Below, piece after piece: positions 4,967 through 18,311 of a DNA stretch of 40,227 bases (positions within the stretch are counted from its first letter, which is position 1; every line of letters starts with the position of its first letter). Origin of the DNA: Archangiaceae bacterium (GTDB lineage: Bacteria; Myxococcota; Myxococcia; Myxococcales; Myxococcaceae); the NCBI GenBank assembly GCA_016879935.1, contig JAACJQ010000075.1, positions 1 through 40,227 of the forward strand. Direction: 5' to 3'. Both the position numbers and the translations under genes were made by a program. Below the pieces are notes generated by a model. It was given only the letters and a program-made list of their open reading frames with translations, did no database searches and was not told the DNA's origin.

Positions 4967-5500
4967 TCAGGGCGCCTGCGGAGGCGGCGGCGGCCCCATG
5001 CGGCCACCACCCGGGCCCGGCATCTCGGCCTGCAACTTCTCCCAGGCCTCGGGGCCGATGAGCTTGCGCACCTTGAGCATCAACCCGACGCGGTTCTTCC
5101 GCACGGCGAGCTCGGCCTTCGAGATGAGCTCGAGCTTCTGCATCACCTTCGACTCGTCGGGCTTCGGTTCGCCGAGCACCCGCTCGAGCTCGAGCTGCGC
5201 GCGTTTGTGGTCGGCCTCGAGCGTGATGAGGGCCTCGTTCGCGTCGAGTGAGGCCTCGCGCACCTGCTTCGTCACCTCGGGGCTGAGGCCCAGCTTCGCG
5301 GCGACGGGCGGGGGAATGCCCATGGGGCCGTGCATGCCGGGGCCTCCGAAGCCGGGGCCGCCAGGGCCGCCCATACCGTGATGACCACCCATGCCAGGCG
5401 GTGGCGGGCCTCCAGGTCCACCGGGGCCGGGGCCAGGCCCGGGCTGGGCAAACGCGAGCGAAGCAGCGAGCAACGAAGCGGCAGGAAGGAAACGGTTCAT
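4967..5500 (-). CDS. Spy/CpxP-like periplasmic protein (putative heavy-metal sensor family)
   Basis: A 177-residue protein starting at the ATG at 5500, which is preceded by a good GGAGAA at 5506-5511 and lies one base after the stop of the anti-sigma gene. A signal peptide (LPAASLLAASLAFAQ) is followed by a Gly/Pro/Met/His-rich linker with GMGGHHGMGG, which could bind metal. A helical domain with KLGLSPEVTKQVREA and heavily charged helices follows, then a Pro-rich tail. This resembles Spy/CpxP or the periplasmic heavy-metal sensor (PF13801) group, which act as small periplasmic chaperones or sensors. It is the last gene of a sigma/anti-sigma operon, so it is probably the envelope sensor or a target of that switch. 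Confidence 0.72.
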   Translation of the reverse strand: MNRFLPAASLLAASLAFAQPGPGPGPGGPGGPPPPGMGGHHGMGGPGGPGFGGPGMHGPMGIPPPVAAKLGLSPEVTKQVREASLDANEALITLEADHKRAQLELERVLGEPKPDESKVMQKLELISKAELAVRKNRVGLMLKVRKLIGPEAWEKLQAEMPGPGGGRMGPPPPPQAP

Positions 5501-5501
5501 G

Positions 5502-5981
5502 TCAGTTCTCCAGGGTGAGGGTGGACGACGGCGCGAGCCACTCCGGCAACGCACCGAAGGCGGCGTAGGTGGCGTCACTCGTGGTGACGTCACGGTGAAG
5601 GTCGTGTTCGAGCTGCTGCGACAACGAGACGAAGGCGCTCCACTCGCGGTCATGGTCGGCTGGCACCGAGGCGACGAGCTCGGTCTCGACCCGCAGCGGA
5701 GGCGTCGGCGCGGCGATGACGGGCTCGTTCACGGCTGGCGCCGGCCGGAGCACCGCGAACCCGCAGACGCCGGCGACCGCGAGCAGCACGGTGAGGCCAC
5801 GGAAGAGCACCACGCGGCGACGCAGGCGCGTGCGCAGCCGCGGCTCGAGATGACGGGCTGCCTTCGCGGCGAGGTGGTCGCTGGCGAAGCCGTCACAGGT
5901 GGCGCAGGTCTTCAGGTGCGCCGCGGTCTCGGAGGTCGGCTCGTCGGCGCTCACCGCGTGCTGCACGTCGTCACAGGTCAT
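5502..5981 (-). CDS. Membrane-anchored anti-sigma factor-like protein
   Basis: A 159-residue protein whose ATG at 5981 overlaps the stop of the sigma gene by one base (TGATG), implying translational coupling. The N-terminus has a zinc-finger-like anti-sigma segment: HLKTCATCDGF, with the CxxC of the zf-HC2 family, although the spacing to the first His is short. A transmembrane helix (VVLFRGLTVLLAVAGVCGFAVL) follows, then about 85 residues predicted to lie outside the inner membrane. Its position between an ECF sigma gene and a periplasmic protein fits an anti-sigma factor that holds the sigma until an envelope signal arrives. The pairing is inferred from gene order. Confidence 0.78.
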   Translation of the reverse strand: MTCDDVQHAVSADEPTSETAAHLKTCATCDGFASDHLAAKAARHLEPRLRTRLRRRVVLFRGLTVLLAVAGVCGFAVLRPAPAVNEPVIAAPTPPLRVETELVASVPADHDREWSAFVSLSQQLEHDLHRDVTTSDATYAAFGALPEWLAPSSTLTLEN

Positions 5982-6526
5982 CACGGCAGCTCCTTGTCGG
6001 GCAGAACGCCCTGCGCTCTCAGCGCCTTCACCGCGCGCTGCACGTGCACCCGCACGGTGCCGCGGTTCATCGCCATGGCCTCGGCCACCTCGTCGAGCGA
6101 CAGCCCCTCGAGGTAGCGCAACGAGAACGCGGTGCTCTGCTTCGGCGACAGGCCTTCGAGGGCGGCGGCCAGCTTCGCGCGGTGCTCGCTTCGTGCTGCG
6201 TCGTCGTCGACGGGCTCGACGACCTCGGGCTCGACGAGGAGCAGCTTCGAGAACGCGCTCCACAACCGCCGGCGCCGCAGGTGACTCATGGCGCGGTGCA
6301 CGACGATGCGCCTCAACCAGCCCGGCGCCGCCGCTGCGTCTTTCAAGCTCGCCCGCTGCGACCACGCCTGCGTCATCGCTGCCTGGAACACGTCCTTCGC
6401 CTCTTCTGCGTCCCACACGAGCCGGCGAGCCAGGGCCTCGAGCCCGCGCCGCTGCGCAGACACGAGGGCTTCGAAGTCGAGAGCGACCTCAGGCACGGGC
6501 GGCATCATGGAAGACGCGCTGTCCAC
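5981..6526 (-). CDS. ECF RNA polymerase sigma factor
   Basis: A 181-residue sigma-70 family factor of the ECF type. Region 2 is visible as LARRLVWDAEEAKDVFQAAM, then PGWLRRIVVHRAMSHLRRRR. Region 4 is a helix-turn-helix, LEGLSLDEVAEAMAMNRGTV then RVHVQRAVKALR. Regions 1 and 3 are absent, as expected for the class. The frame opens with a GTG at 6526; ATG codons at 6508 and 6505 are alternative starts and no Shine-Dalgarno decides between them. It leads an operon with an anti-sigma gene and a Spy-like gene and should direct RNA polymerase to an envelope- or metal-stress regulon. Confidence 0.9.
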   Translation of the reverse strand: MDSASSMMPPVPEVALDFEALVSAQRRGLEALARRLVWDAEEAKDVFQAAMTQAWSQRASLKDAAAAPGWLRRIVVHRAMSHLRRRRLWSAFSKLLLVEPEVVEPVDDDAARSEHRAKLAAALEGLSPKQSTAFSLRYLEGLSLDEVAEAMAMNRGTVRVHVQRAVKALRAQGVLPDKELP

Positions 6527-6571: not shown

Positions 6572-7522
6572 CTACTGGCAGTCAGGCGTCGTGCAGGTGC
6601 ACGGAACGTCGACGGGCGTGACGGCGCAGCCACCCACGGGCGTGAGGCGAATGGAAGGCAGGGCGTTGAAACCGGGGGTCAGCGTCACCATCAGGTTCGC
6701 GGCCTGGTAGTTCGTCTTGCCGACGGCGAGCGTCTGCGGCCCGCCGGGCGTGAGGTCGATGAGCTCGGCGAACCCACGGCCCTCCTTCGTGCAGGTCGCG
6801 CGGCCTTGAATCGCCACGCGGGCGGTGAGCGCCGCTCCGGTGCAGTCGTCGACGACGTTGAGGCTGACGCGCGCCCGCTGCTGACACGTCATCGACACGG
6901 GCTCACACCACAACGTCGCCGGGCAGCCGCCACAGGGCAGTGGAGTCAGCTGCAGGTCGATGCGGTTCGCGCCCGGGTTGATGCTGAGGCGAAACGTCTT
7001 GCGCTCGTAACGCGCGAACACGGCGGAGCCATCGACGTCTCCGGTGGACAGACCCTCGAAGGTGAAGCCGCCACGCTCGTTGCTGACGACCGAGGCCACA
7101 CCGACGTTCACCGTCACACCTTGCAGCGGCGCACCCGTCTGCGCGTCGGTCACCGAGCCCGCGAGCCGCGCACACGCCTGACAGCGCAGCGGCGTGAGCT
7201 CGACGACGAGCCGATTGGTGCCCTCGACGAGCGAGACCCTGAAGTCCTTTCGTTCGTAGCCCTGCTTCACCGCGGTGCCGTCGAACTCGCCCACGGCCAG
7301 GTCGTCGAGCGCGAAGGTGCCGTCGGCGTCGGAGGCGATGGACGCGGAGGCGACGTTGATGGTGACGCCGGCGAGGGGCGCTCCGGTGGAGACGTCGGAG
7401 GCGGTGCCCGTCAGCCGAACCTTCGGCAACACCGACGGCAGCCCGAAGATCTGCTCGCGCGACAACGGCTCGAGGCCGCAGCCCGCCAGCAGCAGCACGA
7501 ACACGACTCGCTTCACCACCAT
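6572..7522 (-). CDS. Lipoprotein with two carboxypeptidase-regulatory-like (CarboxypepD_reg) repeats
   Basis: A 316-residue protein from the ATG at 7522, which overlaps the 3' end of the caspase gene by 10 bases. The N-terminus MVVKRVVFVLLLAGCGLEP is a lipoprotein signal with lipobox LAGC. Two homologous beta-sandwich repeats follow: LTGTASDVSTGAPLAGVTIN and LAGSVTDAQTGAPLQGVTVN, each with a later F(T/A)(F/L)(D/E) strand and a Y..K.FR strand. This is the CarboxypepD_reg-like / SpaA-like fold used in surface proteins. Several Cys pairs (CQAC, CGGC, CTCTTPDC) separate and follow the repeats and may form disulfides. It is the last gene of the second ECF operon and probably sits on the outer membrane. 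Confidence 0.82.
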   Translation of the reverse strand: MVVKRVVFVLLLAGCGLEPLSREQIFGLPSVLPKVRLTGTASDVSTGAPLAGVTINVASASIASDADGTFALDDLAVGEFDGTAVKQGYERKDFRVSLVEGTNRLVVELTPLRCQACARLAGSVTDAQTGAPLQGVTVNVGVASVVSNERGGFTFEGLSTGDVDGSAVFARYERKTFRLSINPGANRIDLQLTPLPCGGCPATLWCEPVSMTCQQRARVSLNVVDDCTGAALTARVAIQGRATCTKEGRGFAELIDLTPGGPQTLAVGKTNYQAANLMVTLTPGFNALPSIRLTPVGGCAVTPVDVPCTCTTPDCQ

Positions 7523-9180
7523 AGGGTTGCTCCCGCGGTCACCACTGGTTCGGCGAAAGGCACGCGCACGCCGTCGAGCTGCACCCACGTCGCCTCGAAG
7601 CGGCCCTCGAGCCAGAGCGAGAGCCACGTGAACAGGGTGCCCTCGGCGAGCAGGCCGGCGCCGAGTGACGGCGCGAAGGGGTCACCCGACACACGCGCGT
7701 TGGCGAGCCGCAGAATCGTCTTGAAGCCGACGGAGCCGAAGGGCGTCACGCCGAGCCGCTCGTCGAAGAGCAGAAAGCGCCAGCCGCCACGCGCGTTGAC
7801 GGCCACGCGGCGGTAGAGCGCGTCGTTCGCCGACGAGCTGCAAAACGCGCCGCGCAGGCCCGTCATCACGTGACCGAAGTGGAGGCGAGCGCCGACCTCC
7901 ACACCATGCTCCAGCCCCGGCAAGCCGAACGGCGTCGGCGACAACACGTACGACGCGTCGACCCCGAAGGAGCGCACGCGGCTCGAGAGCACGTTGGGGC
8001 GACCCGAGACGTACCCGGCGTCGAGCGCGGCGACGACCTGCTGGGAGAACGGGCTCTGGAACGAGACCGGCTCCCAGTCGATTTCTCCACGTTCCCGCGT
8101 GCGCTTCGTCGCCGAGTCGATGAGGGCGCCCACCGTGCGCGACTCGCCCGAGACGAGTTCGACGTCGGCGGCGCTGCCCAGCTCTCCATCGCGGCGCTGT
8201 ACCTGATAGCGGCCCGAGGGGAGCGTCAGCGTCATCTTCCGCCCCGCGGGCTTGAACAGCTCGGCGAAGACGGGGAGCCCGCTCGGTGACGAGACGCGCA
8301 GCCGGCCCTGGGTGCTCTCGGGCAAGACGAGCCGCGTCGTTCCACCAAGGCTGATGACGGGCGCGCGCAGGTCGCCGCCGGGCGCTTCGAACCACGGCCG
8401 CTGCCCGGTGAGGCCTTCGGTGTTGAAGGCGACGAAGGCGGCGAGCTCTCCGAATCGAACGACGTCGTCTCCGTCGGCATCGGCCGCGCCCGCCAGCCCC
8501 GACGCGAGCACGTGCGAGAAGAAGCCACCCATCAGGTCGCTCGCTTCACCGGCTGGCTTGTCGCTCTGCGCGGCAGTGAGCACCCCGAACGACGTGGAGG
8601 CCGCGCGTGCTTCGAGCGACGCAATCTCCTGCGAGAGGTCGGGCCCACCGCGCTCGGTGAAGAGGCTCTGCGAGCGACAGGCATCGATGAAGAGCTCGAC
8701 GTGGTCGGCGCCCAGCTCCATCAAGGCGAGCTTCAGCTCCTTGCCGGTGATGCTCGCTTCGTCTCCGGCTTCGGGCTCGAGCAGCAGCCGGCCGGTGAGC
8801 CCGTGCCCTGCGTAGAAGAAGAACACCGTCGCGGGGCGCGTGCGGCGGGCGAGCTTCGACTTGAGCTCAGCCAGCGCGCGGGAGAGCCCGGTTCGCGTCG
8901 GCGCCGCATGCACGGGCATCGACAGCCCCGCAGCCTCGAGCGTCGTGTTCGTCTGCGCGTCGGGCGTGGTGAGCACCGTCACGCCACCTGCGACCGACAG
9001 CGCCTCGAACCAGCGCGCCATGCGAAGCGCATCGTCATCGGCGAAGCGCAGCGTCGGCAGACCGGGCGAGGTGCTCGTGCGCGCCAGCCCTCCGTTGTGA
9101 CCGACGACGACGGCGTACACGTCTCCTCCGCTCGCAGGAGCGACCGACAACACGAGCGAGAGCAGGAGACTGGACGTCAT
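7513..9180 (-). CDS. Exported caspase-family (peptidase C14) protein
   Basis: A 555-residue protein from an ATG at 9180 that overlaps the anti-sigma stop by four bases (ATGA). Residues 1-18 form a signal peptide. The caspase fold runs to about residue 270: VYAVVVGHNGG strand, RFADDDA, then FFFYAGHG with catalytic His126 and LFIDACRS with catalytic Cys168. Both active-site residues of clan CD are present, so it should be an active Cys protease or a closely related hydrolase. The C-terminal half is strand-rich and ends in aromatic residues (GATLWW), somewhat like an outer-membrane barrel, but I cannot assign it. Fusion to export and an ECF switch points to an envelope or extracytoplasmic role rather than cytosolic cell death. 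Confidence 0.88.
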   Translation of the reverse strand: MTSSLLLSLVLSVAPASGGDVYAVVVGHNGGLARTSTSPGLPTLRFADDDALRMARWFEALSVAGGVTVLTTPDAQTNTTLEAAGLSMPVHAAPTRTGLSRALAELKSKLARRTRPATVFFFYAGHGLTGRLLLEPEAGDEASITGKELKLALMELGADHVELFIDACRSQSLFTERGGPDLSQEIASLEARAASTSFGVLTAAQSDKPAGEASDLMGGFFSHVLASGLAGAADADGDDVVRFGELAAFVAFNTEGLTGQRPWFEAPGGDLRAPVISLGGTTRLVLPESTQGRLRVSSPSGLPVFAELFKPAGRKMTLTLPSGRYQVQRRDGELGSAADVELVSGESRTVGALIDSATKRTRERGEIDWEPVSFQSPFSQQVVAALDAGYVSGRPNVLSSRVRSFGVDASYVLSPTPFGLPGLEHGVEVGARLHFGHVMTGLRGAFCSSSANDALYRRVAVNARGGWRFLLFDERLGVTPFGSVGFKTILRLANARVSGDPFAPSLGAGLLAEGTLFTWLSLWLEGRFEATWVQLDGVRVPFAEPVVTAGATLWW

Positions 9181-9887
9181 GGCTGCACTGACAAGACCCC
9201 CGTCACCTGCGGCCTGGCAAGTGGCAGCTTCTTCGTCGAGGTCGACAGGCCCTTCGCGGCGCGCAGCACCTCATCGGGCGTCGAGTCGGTGACGGCGAAC
9301 AGACGCCACGTTCCCGCGGGCAACGACTCACTGGAGCCGGTGGGCAGCACGCGCGCTCCCGTCTCGTTGAGGACGACGACGACGACCTGCGCCTTCGAGC
9401 TCACCTGGAGCCAGTCGTTGGCAGAGAGCGAGGCTTCACCCGAGGCAGGCAGCTCGGCGACGAGGCGCACGGGAACGTCTCCCGACTTCGGCTTGGCGTA
9501 GATGGAGATGGAGAACGGCGCCGCGGGCACTTCGGTGCCTCCGCGCTCGACGACGTCTGGCTCGTGTTTGAGGAAGGCGACGAAGGCGAGCGTCGCCGCG
9601 AGCGAGACGGGCATGGCGATGAGGGCCCAGCGAGGCGCGGAGCGGGTGCGCGGCTTCGGAGCCACCATCGCTTCCAGACGCGCCCGCTCACGCGCGAGCT
9701 CGGCGCCCGTGGCTTCCGACGTGCCCGTGGCGGCGCGCGCGGTCAGCATCAACGCGTCGTAGTGCGCCCGGCATGCCTCACACGTCGCGAGGTGTTCCCG
9801 GAGCGAGCGCTCTTCGTCGACCGACGACGTGCCCGCGACGGCTGCTTCGATGGCGCCGCGATGGAAGAGCAGGCTCACGACAGCCAC
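9177..9887 (-). CDS. Zinc-finger anti-sigma factor
   Basis: A 236-residue protein beginning at a GTG at 9887 (another in-frame GTG at 9878), overlapping the upstream sigma gene by 13 bases. Residues 32-39 carry the HxxxCxxC zinc motif of zf-HC2 anti-sigma factors (H32, C36, C39 in HLATCEACR). A single transmembrane helix lies at about 87-106 (WALIAMPVSLAATLAFVAFL). The C-terminal part, about 130 residues, is predicted to be periplasmic and resembles a DUF4384-like beta domain (SANDWLQVSSKAQVVVVVL), which often accompanies caspase proteins. It should hold the neighbouring sigma inactive at the membrane. Confidence 0.85.
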   Translation of the reverse strand: MAVVSLLFHRGAIEAAVAGTSSVDEERSLREHLATCEACRAHYDALMLTARAATGTSEATGAELARERARLEAMVAPKPRTRSAPRWALIAMPVSLAATLAFVAFLKHEPDVVERGGTEVPAAPFSISIYAKPKSGDVPVRLVAELPASGEASLSANDWLQVSSKAQVVVVVLNETGARVLPTGSSESLPAGTWRLFAVTDSTPDEVLRAAKGLSTSTKKLPLARPQVTGVLSVQP

Positions 9888-10447
9888 TCCTTCGCGAGGG
9901 CCCGCAGCGTGTCACTGGCCGCCAGCCGCGCGACGAGCTTCTTCTTCAGGTACTTCGTCTGCCGCACCGTCACGCCCATCACGCCCGCGAGCTCTTCGTT
10001 CGTGAGCCCTTCTCCGAGGCCCTTCGTGAGCACGGTGTCTTCCTGCTTCGGGAGTGACTGGCGGAACGTGTCGACGGCCTGCTTCAAGGTCGCGCTCATG
10101 AATCGTTCATCGACGGTGGGGCCTTCGAGCCACAGCGCGTCGTCGAGGTCGTCGATGGGCACCGACGCATCGGGGCGGCGGCCCTTCGCGCGCAGCAGCT
10201 CGCGGCAGCGGTTCGCCGTCACGGCGCGCAGCCACGGCCCGAGCGCGCCACGGTTCACGTCGTACGAAGACTGCATGCGGTGAACCATGAGCCACACCTC
10301 CTGCGCTGCCTCTTCCTGCTCGAACGGGGTGCGGAAGAAGCGCGCCACCCAGCGGCGCACGTTCCGGGCGTTCGTCGAATACACGTCGAGAAAGGCGGCG
10401 CTCTCGCCGCGGGCGAATCGAACCTGCAACGTCGTGTCGTCCGACAC
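9875..10447 (-). CDS. ECF-type RNA polymerase sigma factor controlling the caspase operon
   Basis: A 190-residue sigma factor starting at a GTG at 10447. Region 2 is seen as RTPFEQEEAAQEVWLMVHRM and GPWLRAVTANRCRELLR. Region 4 is GLTNEELAGVMGVTVRQTKY, ending in a basic recognition helix (LKKKLVARL). It heads a tightly overlapping operon: sigma, anti-sigma, caspase-like protein, lipoprotein. A GAACC-type element on the minus strand (TGAACC, 10488-10493), about 40 bases upstream of the start, could be an ECF -35 box for autoregulation. The matching -10 is not convincing, so this is only a suggestion. Confidence 0.88.
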   Translation of the reverse strand: MSDDTTLQVRFARGESAAFLDVYSTNARNVRRWVARFFRTPFEQEEAAQEVWLMVHRMQSSYDVNRGALGPWLRAVTANRCRELLRAKGRRPDASVPIDDLDDALWLEGPTVDERFMSATLKQAVDTFRQSLPKQEDTVLTKGLGEGLTNEELAGVMGVTVRQTKYLKKKLVARLAASDTLRALAKEWLS

Positions 10448-11487: not shown

Positions 11488-14400
11488 TCAGAAGTCGCGG
11501 CTCCACACGATGTCGGCGCCGAACGCAGGCGCATCGACGCCACCGCTCGCCTGCAGCGACACGTCTTTCGACACCTGCAGCTCGAGCCGGCCCGTGTGCA
11601 CGCTCTCACCACGCGCCTTGTTCGCGCCGGGCTGGCCGACGTAGCCGAGGTAGAGCGAGTCGCTCAGGTACTTGCCGACCTCGACGCGGGTCGACTCGAG
11701 GCCCTCTGCTCCCGTCTCGATGCTCACCACGTCGACGATGTCGATGGGCAGCCGTTTGAGCAGCGCCGACTTGAGCTGGTTCGCCGCGAGCGAGCCGATG
11801 ACCGACACCGCCTGCTCGGCCGTGATGGCGCCCGACGAACGCCGCAGGTCTCGCCGCCCCGTCGCGAGCAAGGTGTAGATGTCTGATTCGCTCATCGACG
11901 GGTCCGAGCTCACCTTCAGCACCACGTCGGTGCCGCGGCCGACGACGTTCACCGTCACCTTCACCTTCTCGCGGTCGTTCGTGTGCAGCGCGGTCACGTT
12001 CACGTACGGCTGCTTCGCAGGCCCGGCGAAGCGCACGGTCGAGTCGGAGCGGGCTCCGACGGTGTTCGAGCGCACCACCTTGAACTCGCGCCCGATGACG
12101 TCGATGCGGCCACCGAGCACCTGCGCCTCGCCGAAGAGCTGGGTCTCGCCGGTGTACTCGACGCGGAAGCCCTCGCTCAGCCCGAGCTCGAGGTTCAAGT
12201 CGGAGCTGCGCAGCCAGATGTTCCGCGGCGCGTCGATGACCGCGCGCACGGCGAGAGACGAGGCCTCGGCCTGCTTCACCGCTTCACCACGGCGGCGGCC
12301 GGCGATGGTGCGGCCTCCACGCACGATGACGAGGTCTTTGGGCCGCTCGAGGTCTTGAATGTCTTTTCGTTTCACCTCGGGCAGCTCGACGTCGACGCGC
12401 GAGAGGGAGATCTTCGGCAGCTCGATGGCGCCCTCGGAGAGCTCGGCGTTCAGCTCGTACTTCACGCTGAGAATCGCCAGCAGCTGGTCGTCGGTGACGA
12501 TGGGGAACCGCGTGGCCGTGCCGCTCGACTCGAAGGTCCAGATGCCGGTGGGCTGTCGCACGGCGACCAGGGGATTCATCGCGAACCCGCCACCACCGGC
12601 GCGCACCGACAACGTCTGCACCTCGACGCGCTCACGCGAGACGACGGTCTCGAGGTCGATGTCGCGGTAGTCGCCATAGCTCGCCAGGCCGAGCCGCCCC
12701 TTCTTCCACGCCACCTCGCCACCGATGTCGGGGTTGCCCGAGAGGCCCTTCACCTTGAAGTTCGAGAGCGTGAGCTGGCCTCCGACGATGCGCACCATCG
12801 GCGTCACGCCCGAGAGGAAGCCCAGGTCGAAGTCCTTCGAGGCGACCGAGAGGTCGAGCGGAATGGCCGTGAGCGAGAGGCCCTGGCGCAGCGTGGCGAT
12901 GGAGAGGTCGACGCCCACCGTGCCCGTCGCGCGCAGCTCACTGTTACCCGACGCCTTGAGCGTCAGCCCGATGGACTGCGCTTTGCCTTGCGTGCGGCTC
13001 ACCAGACGCGCCTGCCCGAGCGGAACCTTGCCGAAGCTGAGGCCCTGCACGGTGCCGTCGATGGTGAGCTTCGGGTCGTCGAGCGTGCCCTTCATGTCGA
13101 GGTCGAGGCTCACCGCGCCGGTCGGCATCACCTCGTCATCGCGTTTGGGCAGCAGGCGGCTCAGCGGCAGCGGCATGACCGAGAGGCGCCCGGTGACGTG
13201 CTCGGCCCCCAGCGCGTCGACGTGCTCCAGCTTCGCGAGCGTGGTGTCGACGAAGAGGTCGAGGTCGTAGAGCGGCTTGCCCAGCATGCGGCCCTTGCCC
13301 GAGAGGCGGGTGACGGTGTCTCCGGCGGTGAGCACGAGCGTGCCGTCGAGGTCTTCGAGCGGCGCAGCGTTCACCCGCTCGAAGTCGAGCGTCACCTGGC
13401 CCTTCGGGTCGTCGAGGCTGCCCACCACGTGCGCCTTCATCGAGGCGCGGCCCGTGACGTCGTCGAAGCCCTTCACGCCGAGCGCCTTCACCTTCTCGAG
13501 CGCGAGGCCGGCCACGGTCGCGTCGACGGTGAGCGGAGCCGTCATCAGCGCGTCGAGCGTCGGCAGCTGCCGTCGCAGGCCGGGCACGGTGAACGGCGTG
13601 ACGAGCGTGCCGGTGACGACGGCGCCGAGGGTGCTGGCCTCGAGCTTCGCCGTCAGCTTGCCCTCGTCGTTCGTCGCGACGGTGAGCACCACGGGCTCGA
13701 GCACGAGGTTCTGCTGGAGCGCTGCGGTGCGCGTGAGCGTGAACAGGTCGGAGCCCGCGCTGAGGGTGATGGCCGGGTCGTTCGCGGGCCCCTTCGCCGA
13801 GAGGTGACCGCTCAACGTTCCCGTCACTGGCCACGTCTCGGCCCGCCAGCTCTGGAGCGCCTCGAGGTTCACGTCGCGCACGTCGGCGTCGACCTCGAGC
13901 AGATCGCTCTGCTCGTCGCGGAGCGCGAAGACGGGCACGTCGAAGCGGCCGTCGATGGCGCCGAGCGACGAGCTGACCTGCGCGGTGCCAGTCGCGCGCC
14001 CATCGACGAAGCGGCCATCGACGGTGCCCGAGAGCTGCGTGACGCCCTTCACCGCGCCGTCTTTCACGGTCAGCTTCGCGACGACGTTCGGCAGCGGAAG
14101 CGCTCCGTCGAGAGAAGCATCGAGCGACACCACGCCCGAGAGCCCGAGCGTCGGCGGCACGAGGAACTTCGGCAGCCGGCCCACGTCGACGTCGACGGCG
14201 TGCACGTCGGCCTTCACGGTCTTGCCCTTCAGCTGGCCTTGCAGGCGCAGCTCCTGGCGGCCCGCCGTGAGCGTGAGCGGCGCGATGGAGACGCTGGGCT
14301 GCCACTCCACGCGGGTCGGCTGACTGAGCGTCCACCGGTCGACGCCCGTGTCGAGCTGCAGCGACGCGACCGCGAGCCCCGCCGAGTCGGCGTCGAGCGT

Positions 14401-15984
14401 TCCATGCAGCGAGAGCCCCAGCGCGCCATAGCCCTTCGTCGTCAACGTCACGTCGAGCTCCCGGCCGTGCGTCGTCACGGCGGCGCGCAGCTCCTCGAAG
14501 GTCTGCGCTCCCAGCGTCAGCTTCGTCGCGAGCAGCGTTCCATCTGCGTCGAGCGGCTTCGTCACGTCGGGCACCGTCACGTCGACGACGAGCGACTTCG
14601 CCGCGAGCGTCGAGACGCGCAGGTCGTCGAGCTGGCCCTGCACCGCCACCTTCGGGTGACGCGTCGGCCCCGTCACCTGCAGCGCGAGCGAGCCTCTGCC
14701 CGAGAGCAGCGGCAGGTGCGCGCCGGTGAACTCCACCGCCGTGGCGTCGAGCTTCGAGAGGTCTTGCGCGAGCAGCGTGCCCGAGAGGTTGAGCGTCGAG
14801 AGCGAGGCGCGGCCGCTCAACTTCACCTCGGCGCCCGGCACCTTCGCGAACAGCTTCTTCACCTGCGCCTGGCCTGCCCTGGCGGTGAGCTGCACGTCGG
14901 CCTGGCCCAGCGTCACCCCCTCGAGCGTCTTCCACGTCGCCTGCGCGTCGAGGTCTCCCGTCAGTTGCTCGGGCGCGAGGTTCGGCGCGCTGCCCTTCGC
15001 CGTGAGGCTGAGCCGTGACGACTTGCCGCCGACGAGCCACTCCGAGAGGTCGACGTCATCGGCCGTCAGCTCGAACTTCGAAATCGACCTGGTCTCGAGG
15101 TCCCACGCGCCGGTGACGCTCAGCTTCGCCTTGCCACCGCTGGCCTCGAGCTTCGCGCCCTTCAGCGAGGCCTTGCCCGTCAGCACCACCGTCTGCCGCA
15201 GCGCGCTCGAGCCGGTGAGCGACTCCACGAGCGCTGGCGTGATGCGAACCTCGTCGACCTCTGAAGCGGTCTCAGGCCAGTCGAAGGTGCCCTTCACGAC
15301 CTCGTCGGCGAAGTGCAGGTCGGTGAAGACGTGGAGCGTGTCGGGCTTCGGGCTGGTGGTGCTGGCGGTGAGGGTGACGGGGCCCTTCACCGGGTCGGTG
15401 CCCAGCGCGGTCAGCTCGAGCGACGACACCACCGTGAGCGGCTGCGTGGTGACGACGGCCTTCGCCTTCGCGGCGAGCTGCTCGAGCCGCACCGTGCGCG
15501 TGCCGTCGGTGAACGAGGCGTCACCGCCCACCAGCTCGACCCCTTCGACGGTGAGCTTCAGCGGCGAGCCCGGCCCGGTCGACGGTGTCTTCGAGGCGAT
15601 GGCGCGCATGAAGTTGAGGCCACGCTCGTCCTGCACGAGCACGACGTGCGGCTGCTCGAGGCGAACCCGGCTGACGCGAAAGTCCTTCCGCGCCGCGGCG
15701 GCCACGTCGACGTCGAGCTCGGCGCGCTTCACCGACATCACCAGCTCGCCTTCGGGCGTGTACAGCTCGAGCCCTTCGAGCACGAGGTGGCCGTCTTCGA
15801 AGTCGACGCGCTCGAACTCGAGCCGCCCGGCGATGGAGCCCTTCACCACCTGCACCACCTGCTCGCGAAGAAACGCCTGCCCGCCGCTGCTGCGCAGCCA
15901 CGCCACGGTCAGCAGCAACACCACGAGCACGAGCACCAGGAGCACCACCGACATGCGCCTGACGCGTTTGCCGAGGCTGGCCAT
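11488..15984 (-). CDS. tamB: TamB/DUF490 translocation and assembly module protein
   Basis: A 1,498-residue protein. Its ATG at 15984 overlaps the tamA stop by one base (TGATG). A basic N-terminus and one transmembrane helix (about residues 11-30, VVLLVLVLVVLLLTVAWL) anchor it in the inner membrane. More than 1,000 residues of short amphipathic beta strands follow, typical of the AsmA/TamB groove that spans the periplasm. The last 300 residues match the TamB C-terminal domain, with VLGGRIDVIGREFKV, then SDIYTLLATGRRDL, and a terminal aromatic (WSRDF) expected of a partner of an Omp85 barrel. The family helps assemble outer-membrane proteins or move phospholipids. Length is within the family range. 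Confidence 0.93.
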   Translation of the reverse strand: MASLGKRVRRMSVVLLVLVLVVLLLTVAWLRSSGGQAFLREQVVQVVKGSIAGRLEFERVDFEDGHLVLEGLELYTPEGELVMSVKRAELDVDVAAAARKDFRVSRVRLEQPHVVLVQDERGLNFMRAIASKTPSTGPGSPLKLTVEGVELVGGDASFTDGTRTVRLEQLAAKAKAVVTTQPLTVVSSLELTALGTDPVKGPVTLTASTTSPKPDTLHVFTDLHFADEVVKGTFDWPETASEVDEVRITPALVESLTGSSALRQTVVLTGKASLKGAKLEASGGKAKLSVTGAWDLETRSISKFELTADDVDLSEWLVGGKSSRLSLTAKGSAPNLAPEQLTGDLDAQATWKTLEGVTLGQADVQLTARAGQAQVKKLFAKVPGAEVKLSGRASLSTLNLSGTLLAQDLSKLDATAVEFTGAHLPLLSGRGSLALQVTGPTRHPKVAVQGQLDDLRVSTLAAKSLVVDVTVPDVTKPLDADGTLLATKLTLGAQTFEELRAAVTTHGRELDVTLTTKGYGALGLSLHGTLDADSAGLAVASLQLDTGVDRWTLSQPTRVEWQPSVSIAPLTLTAGRQELRLQGQLKGKTVKADVHAVDVDVGRLPKFLVPPTLGLSGVVSLDASLDGALPLPNVVAKLTVKDGAVKGVTQLSGTVDGRFVDGRATGTAQVSSSLGAIDGRFDVPVFALRDEQSDLLEVDADVRDVNLEALQSWRAETWPVTGTLSGHLSAKGPANDPAITLSAGSDLFTLTRTAALQQNLVLEPVVLTVATNDEGKLTAKLEASTLGAVVTGTLVTPFTVPGLRRQLPTLDALMTAPLTVDATVAGLALEKVKALGVKGFDDVTGRASMKAHVVGSLDDPKGQVTLDFERVNAAPLEDLDGTLVLTAGDTVTRLSGKGRMLGKPLYDLDLFVDTTLAKLEHVDALGAEHVTGRLSVMPLPLSRLLPKRDDEVMPTGAVSLDLDMKGTLDDPKLTIDGTVQGLSFGKVPLGQARLVSRTQGKAQSIGLTLKASGNSELRATGTVGVDLSIATLRQGLSLTAIPLDLSVASKDFDLGFLSGVTPMVRIVGGQLTLSNFKVKGLSGNPDIGGEVAWKKGRLGLASYGDYRDIDLETVVSRERVEVQTLSVRAGGGGFAMNPLVAVRQPTGIWTFESSGTATRFPIVTDDQLLAILSVKYELNAELSEGAIELPKISLSRVDVELPEVKRKDIQDLERPKDLVIVRGGRTIAGRRRGEAVKQAEASSLAVRAVIDAPRNIWLRSSDLNLELGLSEGFRVEYTGETQLFGEAQVLGGRIDVIGREFKVVRSNTVGARSDSTVRFAGPAKQPYVNVTALHTNDREKVKVTVNVVGRGTDVVLKVSSDPSMSESDIYTLLATGRRDLRRSSGAITAEQAVSVIGSLAANQLKSALLKRLPIDIVDVVSIETGAEGLESTRVEVGKYLSDSLYLGYVGQPGANKARGESVHTGRLELQVSKDVSLQASGGVDAPAFGADIVWSRDF

Positions 15985-18188
15985 CAGAAGGCCTCCCCGA
16001 TGGAGAGGTGCACCGTGCAGAGGTTGTCGGGCGCTCCGGAGTAGGTGGTGGAGCCGGTGTTGCCGAGGTTGAAGAAGCAGCCCGACTGCGAGACGTACGC
16101 GGGCTTCGTCGGGTCGTTCTGCAAGAGTGGCCCGCCGATGAAGGGCAAGCGAAACGCGACGTCGCCACGAATGGGCCCGAGCGGCGTGCGGTACCGAACG
16201 CCGACGCCGACGGCCGTGTAGAAGTCCTTCGAGAAGTCGGTGCCCGCGCCGAGCGGCTCGCTGGTGACGAGGCCGTTGTCGACGAAGAAGGCGAGCACGA
16301 ACGACTCGGTCAGCTCGAAGCGCAGCTCGGCCGAGAGCTCGAAGAGGCCGTTGCCGCCGATGGGCACCGTGGCGCCGAGGGCACCGGTGAGGCAATTCCC
16401 CGCGGCGTCCTTCTGGCAGATGTGCACGCCGTCGGCGCCAATCTCGTTCGAGGGCAGCGGCCCGGTGCCCGTCTGAATCACCGCGAGCGGCGAGAGGCGA
16501 CGCTGGTTGAAGCCGCGCATGTACGAGCCGCCCGAGAAGAACCGCGTCACGATGGGCGTCTCGCCTCCACCCAGACCAACCAGCGTGCCCGCCCGCGCCT
16601 TCCCGGCCAGCGTGAAGCGCCGCTCGGGGCCGAAGCTGAAGTAGCCGCGCACCTCGGGCACCAGCTTGAGGAACGGCGTGATTTGCGTGGTGCGTGAGAG
16701 CCCCGCCTGCCCGGTCGCGCCCACGTAGAAGCCCGACTTCGGCTCGAGCTTGTTGTCGCGGCGGTCCCACTCGGCGGTGACGTCGAGGAAGGCCAGCAGG
16801 CAGAGGTCGTCGACGGTGGGAATGATGCGGCCCGCCGGCAGCGCAGGGCACCCCACGGCGGCGCTCGGCGCGACGTTGAGCTGCTGCATCACGGGGATGT
16901 TGAGGAGGTAGACGTTGTTGTTGAGCGACGTACGCACGCTCAAGTCGACGAGCGGCTGCCAGCGAATGGCGAGCGCGAACTCGGCGCCGAGGTAGTCGAA
17001 CGCGTTGTCGAGCGCGCGGAAGAGCCCGAGCGAGGTCTCGAGCTTGAGCTTGCGGTTGTTGAAGAGCCGCGGCACCTCGTAGTTCGCGTCGGCGTTGAAG
17101 AAGAAGCCAACCCGCGCGCCGGCCGGCCCTTCGATGGCCTGACGAATCACCTCGGGAATGTTCGGGAGGAACGCGATGCCCGGCTTGAACTTGAGCGAGA
17201 GCTTGTCGAGCAGCGCGCCGTTGGGGAACAGCCGCGCGAAGCCGAGGTTGCGGTCGGTGTATTCGACGAAGCCGCGCACGTCGTTGCGAATCAAGTCGCC
17301 ACCGCCGCCGCCGCCGAAGCGAATGCTGCGCATCGACGCCTCGCGCACGTCGACGATGATGGGCAGCTCGGCCTTCTCGCGGTCGGGAATACCGCGGTTG
17401 ACCTTCACCGCGCTGAAGACGCCCATCTGAAAGACGCGGGCCTGCGCGTTCGCGAGCGCCGTGTCGGTGTACCAGGAGCCCTTCGGCAGCTCCTCTTCGG
17501 CCTCCTCCTTGATGAGCTTCGACGGCACGACCTTGCCGATGGTGGGCGCGTAGACCTCTCCGAAGCGGAAGCGCAGGCCGGTGTCGACGTCGAGCACCGC
17601 GTCGACCTTCGCGGCGTCGAGGTCGACCACCGCTTCGCCTTCGACCTTCGCTTCGGCAAAGCCCGCTTCGTGCAACTGCGAGACGAGCGACACCTTCGTC
17701 TGCGCCCACGTCTCTTCGAGGAAGACGGTGCCGAGCTTGAGCGGAATGCTCGCGAGCAGGCGCGGCTCGAGGTCGGGCACGCCGCCCAGCCCACGCAGGT
17801 CGAGCGTGCGCAGGGTGGCGGGCTCTCCTTCTTTCAGCTTCACCTTGAGCGTGACGGTGCCGGTGCCCGTCTCGGTGACGAGGTCTTCGAGCACGCGCGC
17901 CTGGTAGTAGCCGCGGGCTTCGTAGACGCGGGTGATGCGGCGCAGGTCGGCCTGCCAGGTGTTGACGTCGAACCACTCGGTGCCGCCGAGAAAGGGGAAC
18001 CAGCGCGACCACCACGGCGTCGCGTTGGTGACGATGCGCTCGGTGACGTCGCGCTCGTCGAGCGCCTTCATGCCCTCGAGGTCGAGGCGGTCGACGCGCA
18101 GCGAGTCGGGCGAGGGCTTCGGCGTCGCGCACGCACACGTCAGCGCGAGCAGCGCGGCGACGAGTCTGGGAGCGCGAGGCGAGGACAT
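15984..18188 (-). CDS. tamA: Omp85-family outer membrane assembly protein (TamA/BamA-like)
   Basis: A 734-residue protein from the ATG at 18188. An N-terminal signal ([15 protein letters not shown]) is followed by POTRA-type domains: [17 protein letters not shown], then [11 protein letters not shown], and [20 protein letters not shown]. The C-terminal half is a 16-strand-type barrel with the Omp85 hallmarks [16 protein letters not shown] (the (V/I)RG(F/Y) loop motif as MRGF) and [16 protein letters not shown], ending in a terminal Phe. It is directly coupled to tamB, so it is the outer-membrane half of the TAM complex. It is transcribed divergently from the RNA-polymerase-like pair. Confidence 0.93.
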
Positions 18189-18311
18189 GAAACCGCCCCC
18201 AGACGTACACCGACCTTCCGAGCGGAGCGACCTCGAGTCACCGCGTTCCTGCCCGTCAGAAAGTGGACTCGTTCGTCTTCTCGTCGAAGCCATCGGGTAG
18301 CGTCGCGCGCC
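18189..18311. promoter_or_regulatory. Divergent intergenic region between tamA and the RNA-polymerase-like operon
   Basis: These 123 bases are the only non-coding DNA between the tamA start and the beta-like start, so promoters for both directions must lie here or inside the flanking genes. A G-rich run (GGGGGCGG on the minus strand) just before the tamA ATG may act as its ribosome site. The beta-like ATG at 18312 lacks a clear Shine-Dalgarno. I see no convincing -35/-10 pair or operator. Confidence 0.4.

Follow-up and report, generated by a model that had tools for sequence, protein, structure and literature searches.

A 40,227-nucleotide stretch of contig JAACJQ010000075.1 from an Archangiaceae bacterium (the whole of which is called the window below) encodes, in overlapping genes on its minus strand, an extracytoplasmic function (ECF) sigma factor, a membrane-bound anti-sigma factor and an exported caspase-like protease of the C14 family (Table 1). 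These three genes are a recurrent, co-inherited module whose linkage is far above chance, and the source genome carries about ten paralogous copies, including the module described here. With about even confidence, we read it as a transmembrane signalling module in which the caspase acts as the site-1 protease that releases the sigma factor, which in turn drives a regulon of lipoproteins as well as itself. A bolder proposal, that the caspase is anchored in the outer membrane as the dedicated site-1 protease of its anti-sigma factor, which it cuts after an invariant Lys/Arg next to the inner membrane, and that up to about ten such relays, each with its own promoter set, operate in parallel in a myxobacterium, is plausible but must be held more tentatively. 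The roles of bacterial caspases beyond defence and cell death are largely an open field, hence the interest of this module.

The recurrence of the module was followed in about 118 loci from 60 genomes, picked solely by caspase similarity. Among the caspases with enough upstream sequence, 86 of 112 have an ECF sigma gene on the same strand, one gene upstream; the linkage for which the initial annotation had proposed a synteny search is therefore conserved. In the source genome (9.5 Mb), ten of the twelve caspase matches come after an ECF sigma gene and an anti-sigma-like gene. The distance from the sigma stop codon to the caspase domain (median 803 bp, about 0.6-1.0 kb for the majority of the 86 linked caspases) leaves room for one gene, and the product of this intervening gene has a single transmembrane helix in nearly all linked loci and the zinc-binding motif Hx3Cx2C in 61 of 85. 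Moreover, the pairwise distances of sigma factor, anti-sigma factor and caspase, calculated for 83 modules, are correlated at 0.88-0.93, a level reached in none of 2000 permutations, from which it follows that the three genes have spread as a unit.

The anti-sigma factor belongs to class I of the ZAS proteins, with the Hx3Cx2C motif, an anti-sigma fold, a single transmembrane helix and a periplasmic domain, and its zf-HC2 score (21.5 bits) lies slightly under the cut-off of 22.2. In a fold search with the AlphaFold2 model, the N-terminal domain of four helices matched RsiW (5wuq_C; Z 5.6, 53 aligned residues, 2.3 A, 26% identity), while the periplasmic domain returned generic matches only (Z of about 6 or less); the domain scan found no FecR domain. 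The model is ordered in its N-terminal helices and in the periplasmic domain (residues 125-236), and residues 77-122 have a predicted local distance difference test (pLDDT) value below 50. As for the family, PF14326 (DUF4384) is matched by 17 of 22 divergent anti-sigma representatives. A profile search gave 150 anti-sigma factors of this DUF4384 type in the 60 genomes, the match of the operon's own protein being circular because its sequence belongs to the alignment used as query. Directly before a caspase stand 137 of the 150 (92 with the caspases listed initially, and 45 of the remaining 58 with another caspase), and all nine of the source genome are caspase-linked. Exceptional arrangements were also seen, with the caspase just upstream (loci L186 and L192), one gene farther downstream (L187) or in convergent orientation (L206).

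The caspase owes its predicted location to its C-terminal part. In fact, the model of this region shows the eight antiparallel strands and the C-terminal aromatic residue of the OmpA/NspA-type barrels, and its best fold matches are NspA (1p4t; Z 18.6, 152 aligned residues, 2.7 A), OmpA (1bxw; Z 17.7, 155 aligned residues, 2.4 A) and OmpW (Z 17.0). Both ends of OmpA-type barrels face the periplasm, as is established for OmpA itself, which should place the protease domain there; the caspase is accordingly predicted to have an outer-membrane anchor and a protease domain on the periplasmic side. A barrel-type outer-membrane C-terminal signature is present in 61 of 82 sigma-linked caspases versus 7 of 25 unlinked ones (p 8e-5). 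The signal-like N-terminus and the barrel together rule out a cytosolic caspase and agree with the extracytoplasmic location proposed by the initial annotation, which had regarded the protein as secreted; the barrel points instead to an enzyme fixed to the outer membrane. Among the loci, exported caspases with neither sigma linkage nor a barrel-type C-terminus were observed as well (L061, L066, L068, L069, L072, L073, L087, L090, L091, L093 and L096), most of them ending in ...DLSP or similar. In L196, a barrel-like protein (2238-2849) with the same type of C-terminus and without a caspase domain occupies the caspase position of a sigma/anti-sigma module.

From the catalytic perspective, the protease domain is of the C14 p20 type, with a Peptidase_C14 (PF00656) score of 29.9 bits against a cut-off of 21.4 and profile matches to metacaspase-4 (6w8s, E 2.1e-7) and to Geobacter GSU0716 (3bij, E 0.0055). 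His126 and Cys168, which the initial annotation had reported as intact, are found at exactly those positions, and D50 and D166 are invariant as well (119-120 homologues). D50 aligns to the alpha-1 Asp of metacaspases, and D166 was assigned through the D-x-C motif, two residues before the Cys. The protein thus carries both the His-Cys dyad and the acidic S1-pocket Asp pair of metacaspases and orthocaspases, with D50/D166 as Asp95/Asp211 of TbMCA2; in the latter these two residues line the S1 pocket for a basic P1 residue, and active metacaspases prefer Arg or Lys at P1 (PMC4357240, PMC6426788). Because the Asp pair is conserved, the caspase is expected to cleave after Arg or Lys, the residue type that is kept in the anti-sigma factors. 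An anti-phage role was considered and rejected, the PADLOC caspase match in a defence scan of the four operon proteins being weak and unaccompanied by any defence partner.

The sole invariant feature of the periplasmic half of the anti-sigma factors is, in fact, a Lys/Arg-Gly pair: among 123 aligned sequences, 108 have Lys and 15 have Arg, followed by Gly in all 123. In an independent scan, 82 of 83 linkers had [KR]G no more than 45 residues from the helix, where 31 were expected from shuffled sequences. In the anti-sigma factor of the operon the pair corresponds to Arg115-Gly116, which falls inside the linker that is disordered in the AlphaFold2 model, and it is in the membrane-adjacent linker that the site-1 cuts of anti-sigma factors are expected. 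Cleavage of the anti-sigma factor by the caspase, which the initial annotation had raised as a possibility, can thus be proposed from sequence features, namely the invariant Lys/Arg-Gly, its position in the linker and the S1-pocket Asp pair.

A candidate promoter, TGTCC-N14-GGCATA, was found by aligning the regions upstream of the sigma gene. It has a single match in the window, even when two mismatches are allowed, and 18 matches in seven genomes of the genus versus 1 for the reversed pattern; with one mismatch allowed the signal is drowned (15 matches versus 21 for the reversed control). The motif precedes the sigma gene in five genomes (G000-G003 and G024) as well as 13 further genes, whose products all have a lipoprotein-like start with a Cys at about residue 15-18. 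At most sites, including the one-mismatch and outgroup sites, a start codon follows 8-12 nt past the motif, a short spacing that suggests leaderless transcripts; sites without such a start codon (e.g., L238 and L245) look like chance matches. The promoter-like sites before lipoprotein genes are among loci L236-L263. A refined motif was present in 6 of the 8 genomes that have the orthologous caspase versus 0 of the 10 that do not (p 0.0015); G005, a genome that is 85% complete, has one motif site and no detected orthologue. Taken as promoters, these sites suggest that the sigma factor is autoregulated and governs a regulon of lipoproteins, in agreement with the sigma control of the caspase operon claimed in the initial annotation. 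A Pfam scan of the candidate regulon lipoproteins gave no informative match, and none is recognisable as lytic.

The mechanism that may be put together from these elements is as follows. The caspase would be exported and inserted through its barrel into the outer membrane, with the protease domain in the periplasm, whereas the anti-sigma factor would sit in the inner membrane, its ZAS domain holding the ECF sigma factor in the cytoplasm and its beta domain exposed to the periplasm on a flexible linker. An envelope signal would activate the caspase, which would then cut the linker after Arg115 (site-1 cleavage); a resident M50 site-2 protease, for which homologues matching PF02163 are candidates, would complete the degradation of the anti-sigma factor. 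The sigma factor, once free, would transcribe its own operon and the lipoprotein genes from the TGTCC-N14-GGCATA promoters.

Several observations weigh against this mechanism. The Lys/Arg-Gly pair is retained in eight of nine anti-sigma factors with no caspase found in the fetched stretch, so that the motif alone is no proof of cleavage and could be inherited or structural; the exception is the anti-sigma factor of L225. A caspase anchored in the outer membrane must span the periplasm to reach a linker at the inner membrane, although the stretch of about 50 residues ahead of the barrel (352-400) might permit such a reach. The caspase domain is poorly modelled (five sequences, low confidence), and the evidence for the protease part is therefore drawn from sequence. 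Moreover, the periplasmic domain of the operon's own anti-sigma factor, taken alone, has no PF14326 match, the anti-sigma and caspase sequences are related by descent, so their column counts are not independent, and phylogenetic dependence also affects the genomes compared for the promoter. As an observation in its own right, in L202 and L225 the anti-sigma gene is followed, in place of the caspase, by a gene with a metalloprotease motif (HESGHFLGLAH and the metallopeptidase-like HEAVH, respectively).

The main rival explanation makes the caspase an output of the system rather than its switch: an unrelated site-1 protease would inactivate the anti-sigma factor, the sigma factor would then bring about production of a periplasmic caspase that processes envelope or prey proteins, and Lys/Arg-Gly would be the structural start of the periplasmic domain. 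The position of the caspase as third gene of a sigma-driven operon would fit, as would the presence of the pair in anti-sigma factors without a detected caspase (8/9) and a regulon otherwise made of lipoproteins, i.e., envelope products. Nevertheless, an effector would need no dedicated type of anti-sigma periplasmic domain, yet 137 of 150 such anti-sigma factors adjoin a caspase, and the invariant residues lie in a disordered linker outside the folded domain and match the P1 expected for the protease. We consider this explanation unlikely, but the most serious of the alternatives.

A role in cell death, autolysis or fratricide, in which the caspase would kill the cell or its neighbours from the envelope upon sigma induction, seems improbable. 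Developmental lysis is known in myxobacteria, and such a role has been suggested for the Myxococcus metacaspase operons in PMC3501461. However, a candidate regulon of lipoproteins, none of them recognisably lytic, and the weak PADLOC caspase match, unaccompanied by a defence partner in the scan of the four operon proteins, speak against it, and about ten parallel copies per genome suit signalling paralogues better than death switches. Equally little credence is given to a pseudo-substrate lock, in which the periplasmic domain of the anti-sigma factor would inhibit or sense the caspase and signalling would be conformational instead of proteolytic. Such a lock would profit from the fusion of DUF4384 to caspase domains elsewhere, which suggests physical contact, and Lys/Arg-Gly could fill the S1 pocket uncut, like the Arg of the gingipain prodomain; the invariance of the dyad (119/119 and 120/120) nevertheless argues for catalysis, and the location of the pair in a flexible linker also counts against a lock.

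As regards the layout of the operon, the initial annotation had described four genes overlapping by 4-13 bases, and the sigma and anti-sigma genes were indeed found to overlap by 13 bp, the anti-sigma and caspase genes by 4 bp, and the caspase and lipoprotein genes by 10 bp. The single operon of four was upheld for its first three genes; the lipoprotein gene lies outside the interval 7513-10447 assigned to it and has an orthologue by BLAST at two ortholog loci only, L038 (70%) and L043 (36%); it is therefore no conserved component of the operon and is ruled out by synteny as a core member of the module. The initial annotation had also contained neither the outer-membrane barrel, nor the roughly ten paralogous copies, nor the fact that the sigma-caspase association has been published since 2012. 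The sigma factor consists of sigma-2 and sigma-4 regions only, as expected for the ECF group (PF04542, 41.5 bits; TIGR02937, 48.8 bits with a cut-off of 42.9), the sigma-4 region scoring 16.5 bits, under the Pfam cut-off.

Table 1. Features of the sigma/anti-sigma/caspase operon, in window coordinates
Feature	Position	Strand	Evidence
Candidate sigma-dependent promoter TGTCC-N14-GGCATA, 11 nt ahead of the sigma start codon	10459-10483	minus	Conservation ahead of the sigma orthologues of G001, G002, G003 and G024
ECF sigma factor, 190 aa	9875-10447	minus	PF04542 E 1.1e-10; TIGR02937 above cut-off
Anti-sigma factor, 236 aa (ZAS domain, single transmembrane helix, periplasmic beta domain)	9177-9887	minus	zf-HC2 match; four-helix N domain in model, RsiW match
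Zinc-binding motif H32-x3-C36-x2-C39 of anti-sigma factor	9771-9794	minus	Sequence
Transmembrane helix of anti-sigma factor, ~residues 86-104	9576-9632	minus	Hydropathy and model
Arg115-Gly116 of anti-sigma factor, predicted site-1 cleavage point in disordered juxtamembrane linker	9540-9545	minus	Column conservation and model
Periplasmic beta-sandwich domain of anti-sigma factor, residues 125-236, DUF4384-type by family	9180-9515	minus	PF14326 matches of relatives; model pLDDT ~70-90
Exported caspase (C14), 555 aa	7513-9180	minus	PF00656 above cut-off
Signal peptide of caspase, ~residues 1-18, n-region without basic residue	9127-9180	minus	Sequence; hydrophobic signal-like start also in orthologues and paralogues
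Caspase p20-like domain, ~residues 20-265, with D50, H126, D166 and C168	8386-9123	minus	Domain match and alignment; low model confidence
Predicted catalytic His126	8803-8805	minus	119/119 homologues
Predicted catalytic Cys168	8677-8679	minus	120/120 homologues
Small beta domain between caspase and barrel, ~residues 283-350	8131-8334	minus	Model secondary structure, medium confidence
Eight-stranded outer-membrane beta-barrel, residues 398-555, C-terminal Trp	7516-7989	minus	pLDDT ~80-93 over most; fold matches
Translationally coupled CarboxypepD_reg lipoprotein, outside the conserved module	6572-7522	minus	PF13620 E 1.5e-21; lipobox LAGC

Directly downstream of the operon, the region 4967-6526 (minus strand) holds a second ECF sigma gene (5981-6526), a possible anti-sigma gene (about 5502-5984) and a gene for a small protein rich in Gly and Pro, perhaps a periplasmic protein of the Spy type. 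The second sigma/anti-sigma pair was rejected as part of the unit and is regarded as a separate system, since a distance of about 5 kb, with other genes in between, separates it from the operon in G003. Upstream, past a small lipoprotein gene, a very long open reading frame (11488-18210, minus strand) has a C-terminal part that appears TamB-like from reading and local BLAST only; TamB is also upstream of the operon in G003 (L038).

The linkage of sigma factors and caspases is already published, and what is new here is the barrel, the co-inherited module, the DUF4384-type anti-sigma factor, the Lys/Arg-Gly pair with the S1-pocket Asp pair and the conserved promoter. A literature search, with subscription journals largely outside its coverage, found no report of a caspase as anti-sigma site-1 protease, of a caspase bearing an outer-membrane barrel or of a DUF4384 anti-sigma factor. 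If the proposed mechanism is true, bacterial caspases of this kind would serve to pass signals across membranes and not as proteases of cell death. They would add a new type of site-1 protease to transmembrane sigma signalling, a cysteine protease with an outer-membrane anchor, and would explain one multi-copy class of myxobacterial ECF factors. Furthermore, a caspase tied to one anti-sigma factor, with a predictable P1 and a predicted regulon, would make non-defence and non-death roles of caspases directly testable in cultured myxobacteria.

Among known systems, the same gene association is found in the metacaspase/sigma-70 operons of Myxococcus xanthus, Anaeromyxobacter, Haliangium and Sorangium, four of the five M. 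xanthus metacaspases being in operons with sigma factors (Asplund-Samuelsson, 2012; PMC3501461); the metacaspase passages of that paper suggest a role in cell death and do not mention the anti-sigma factor, the periplasmic domain, Lys/Arg-Gly, the barrel or the promoter. With the metacaspases and orthocaspases of family C14B, such as TbMCA2 and MaOC1, the caspase shares the His-Cys dyad, the D-x-C motif and the S1-pocket Asp pair, but here it is predicted to be exported and has an outer-membrane barrel and a dedicated anti-sigma partner. For the ECF54 sigma factors, which have CHAT and subtilase neighbours, control by a neighbouring caspase-clan protease has been proposed (PMC8999054); these have no anti-sigma factor, whereas the predicted target here is a membrane anti-sigma factor. 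The three-part relay of outer-membrane protein, inner-membrane anti-sigma factor and ECF sigma factor recalls FecA/FecR/FecI, although the outer-membrane partner is an eight-stranded OmpA-like barrel with a protease and not a TonB-dependent receptor. Finally, the RseA/DegS/RseP pathway of Escherichia coli sigma-E has in common a membrane anti-sigma factor with a cytoplasmic sigma-binding domain, an expected periplasmic site-1 cut and an M50 site-2 protease, with the difference that here the site-1 cut would be made by a cysteine protease of the caspase fold, which has an outer-membrane anchor and shares an operon with its target.

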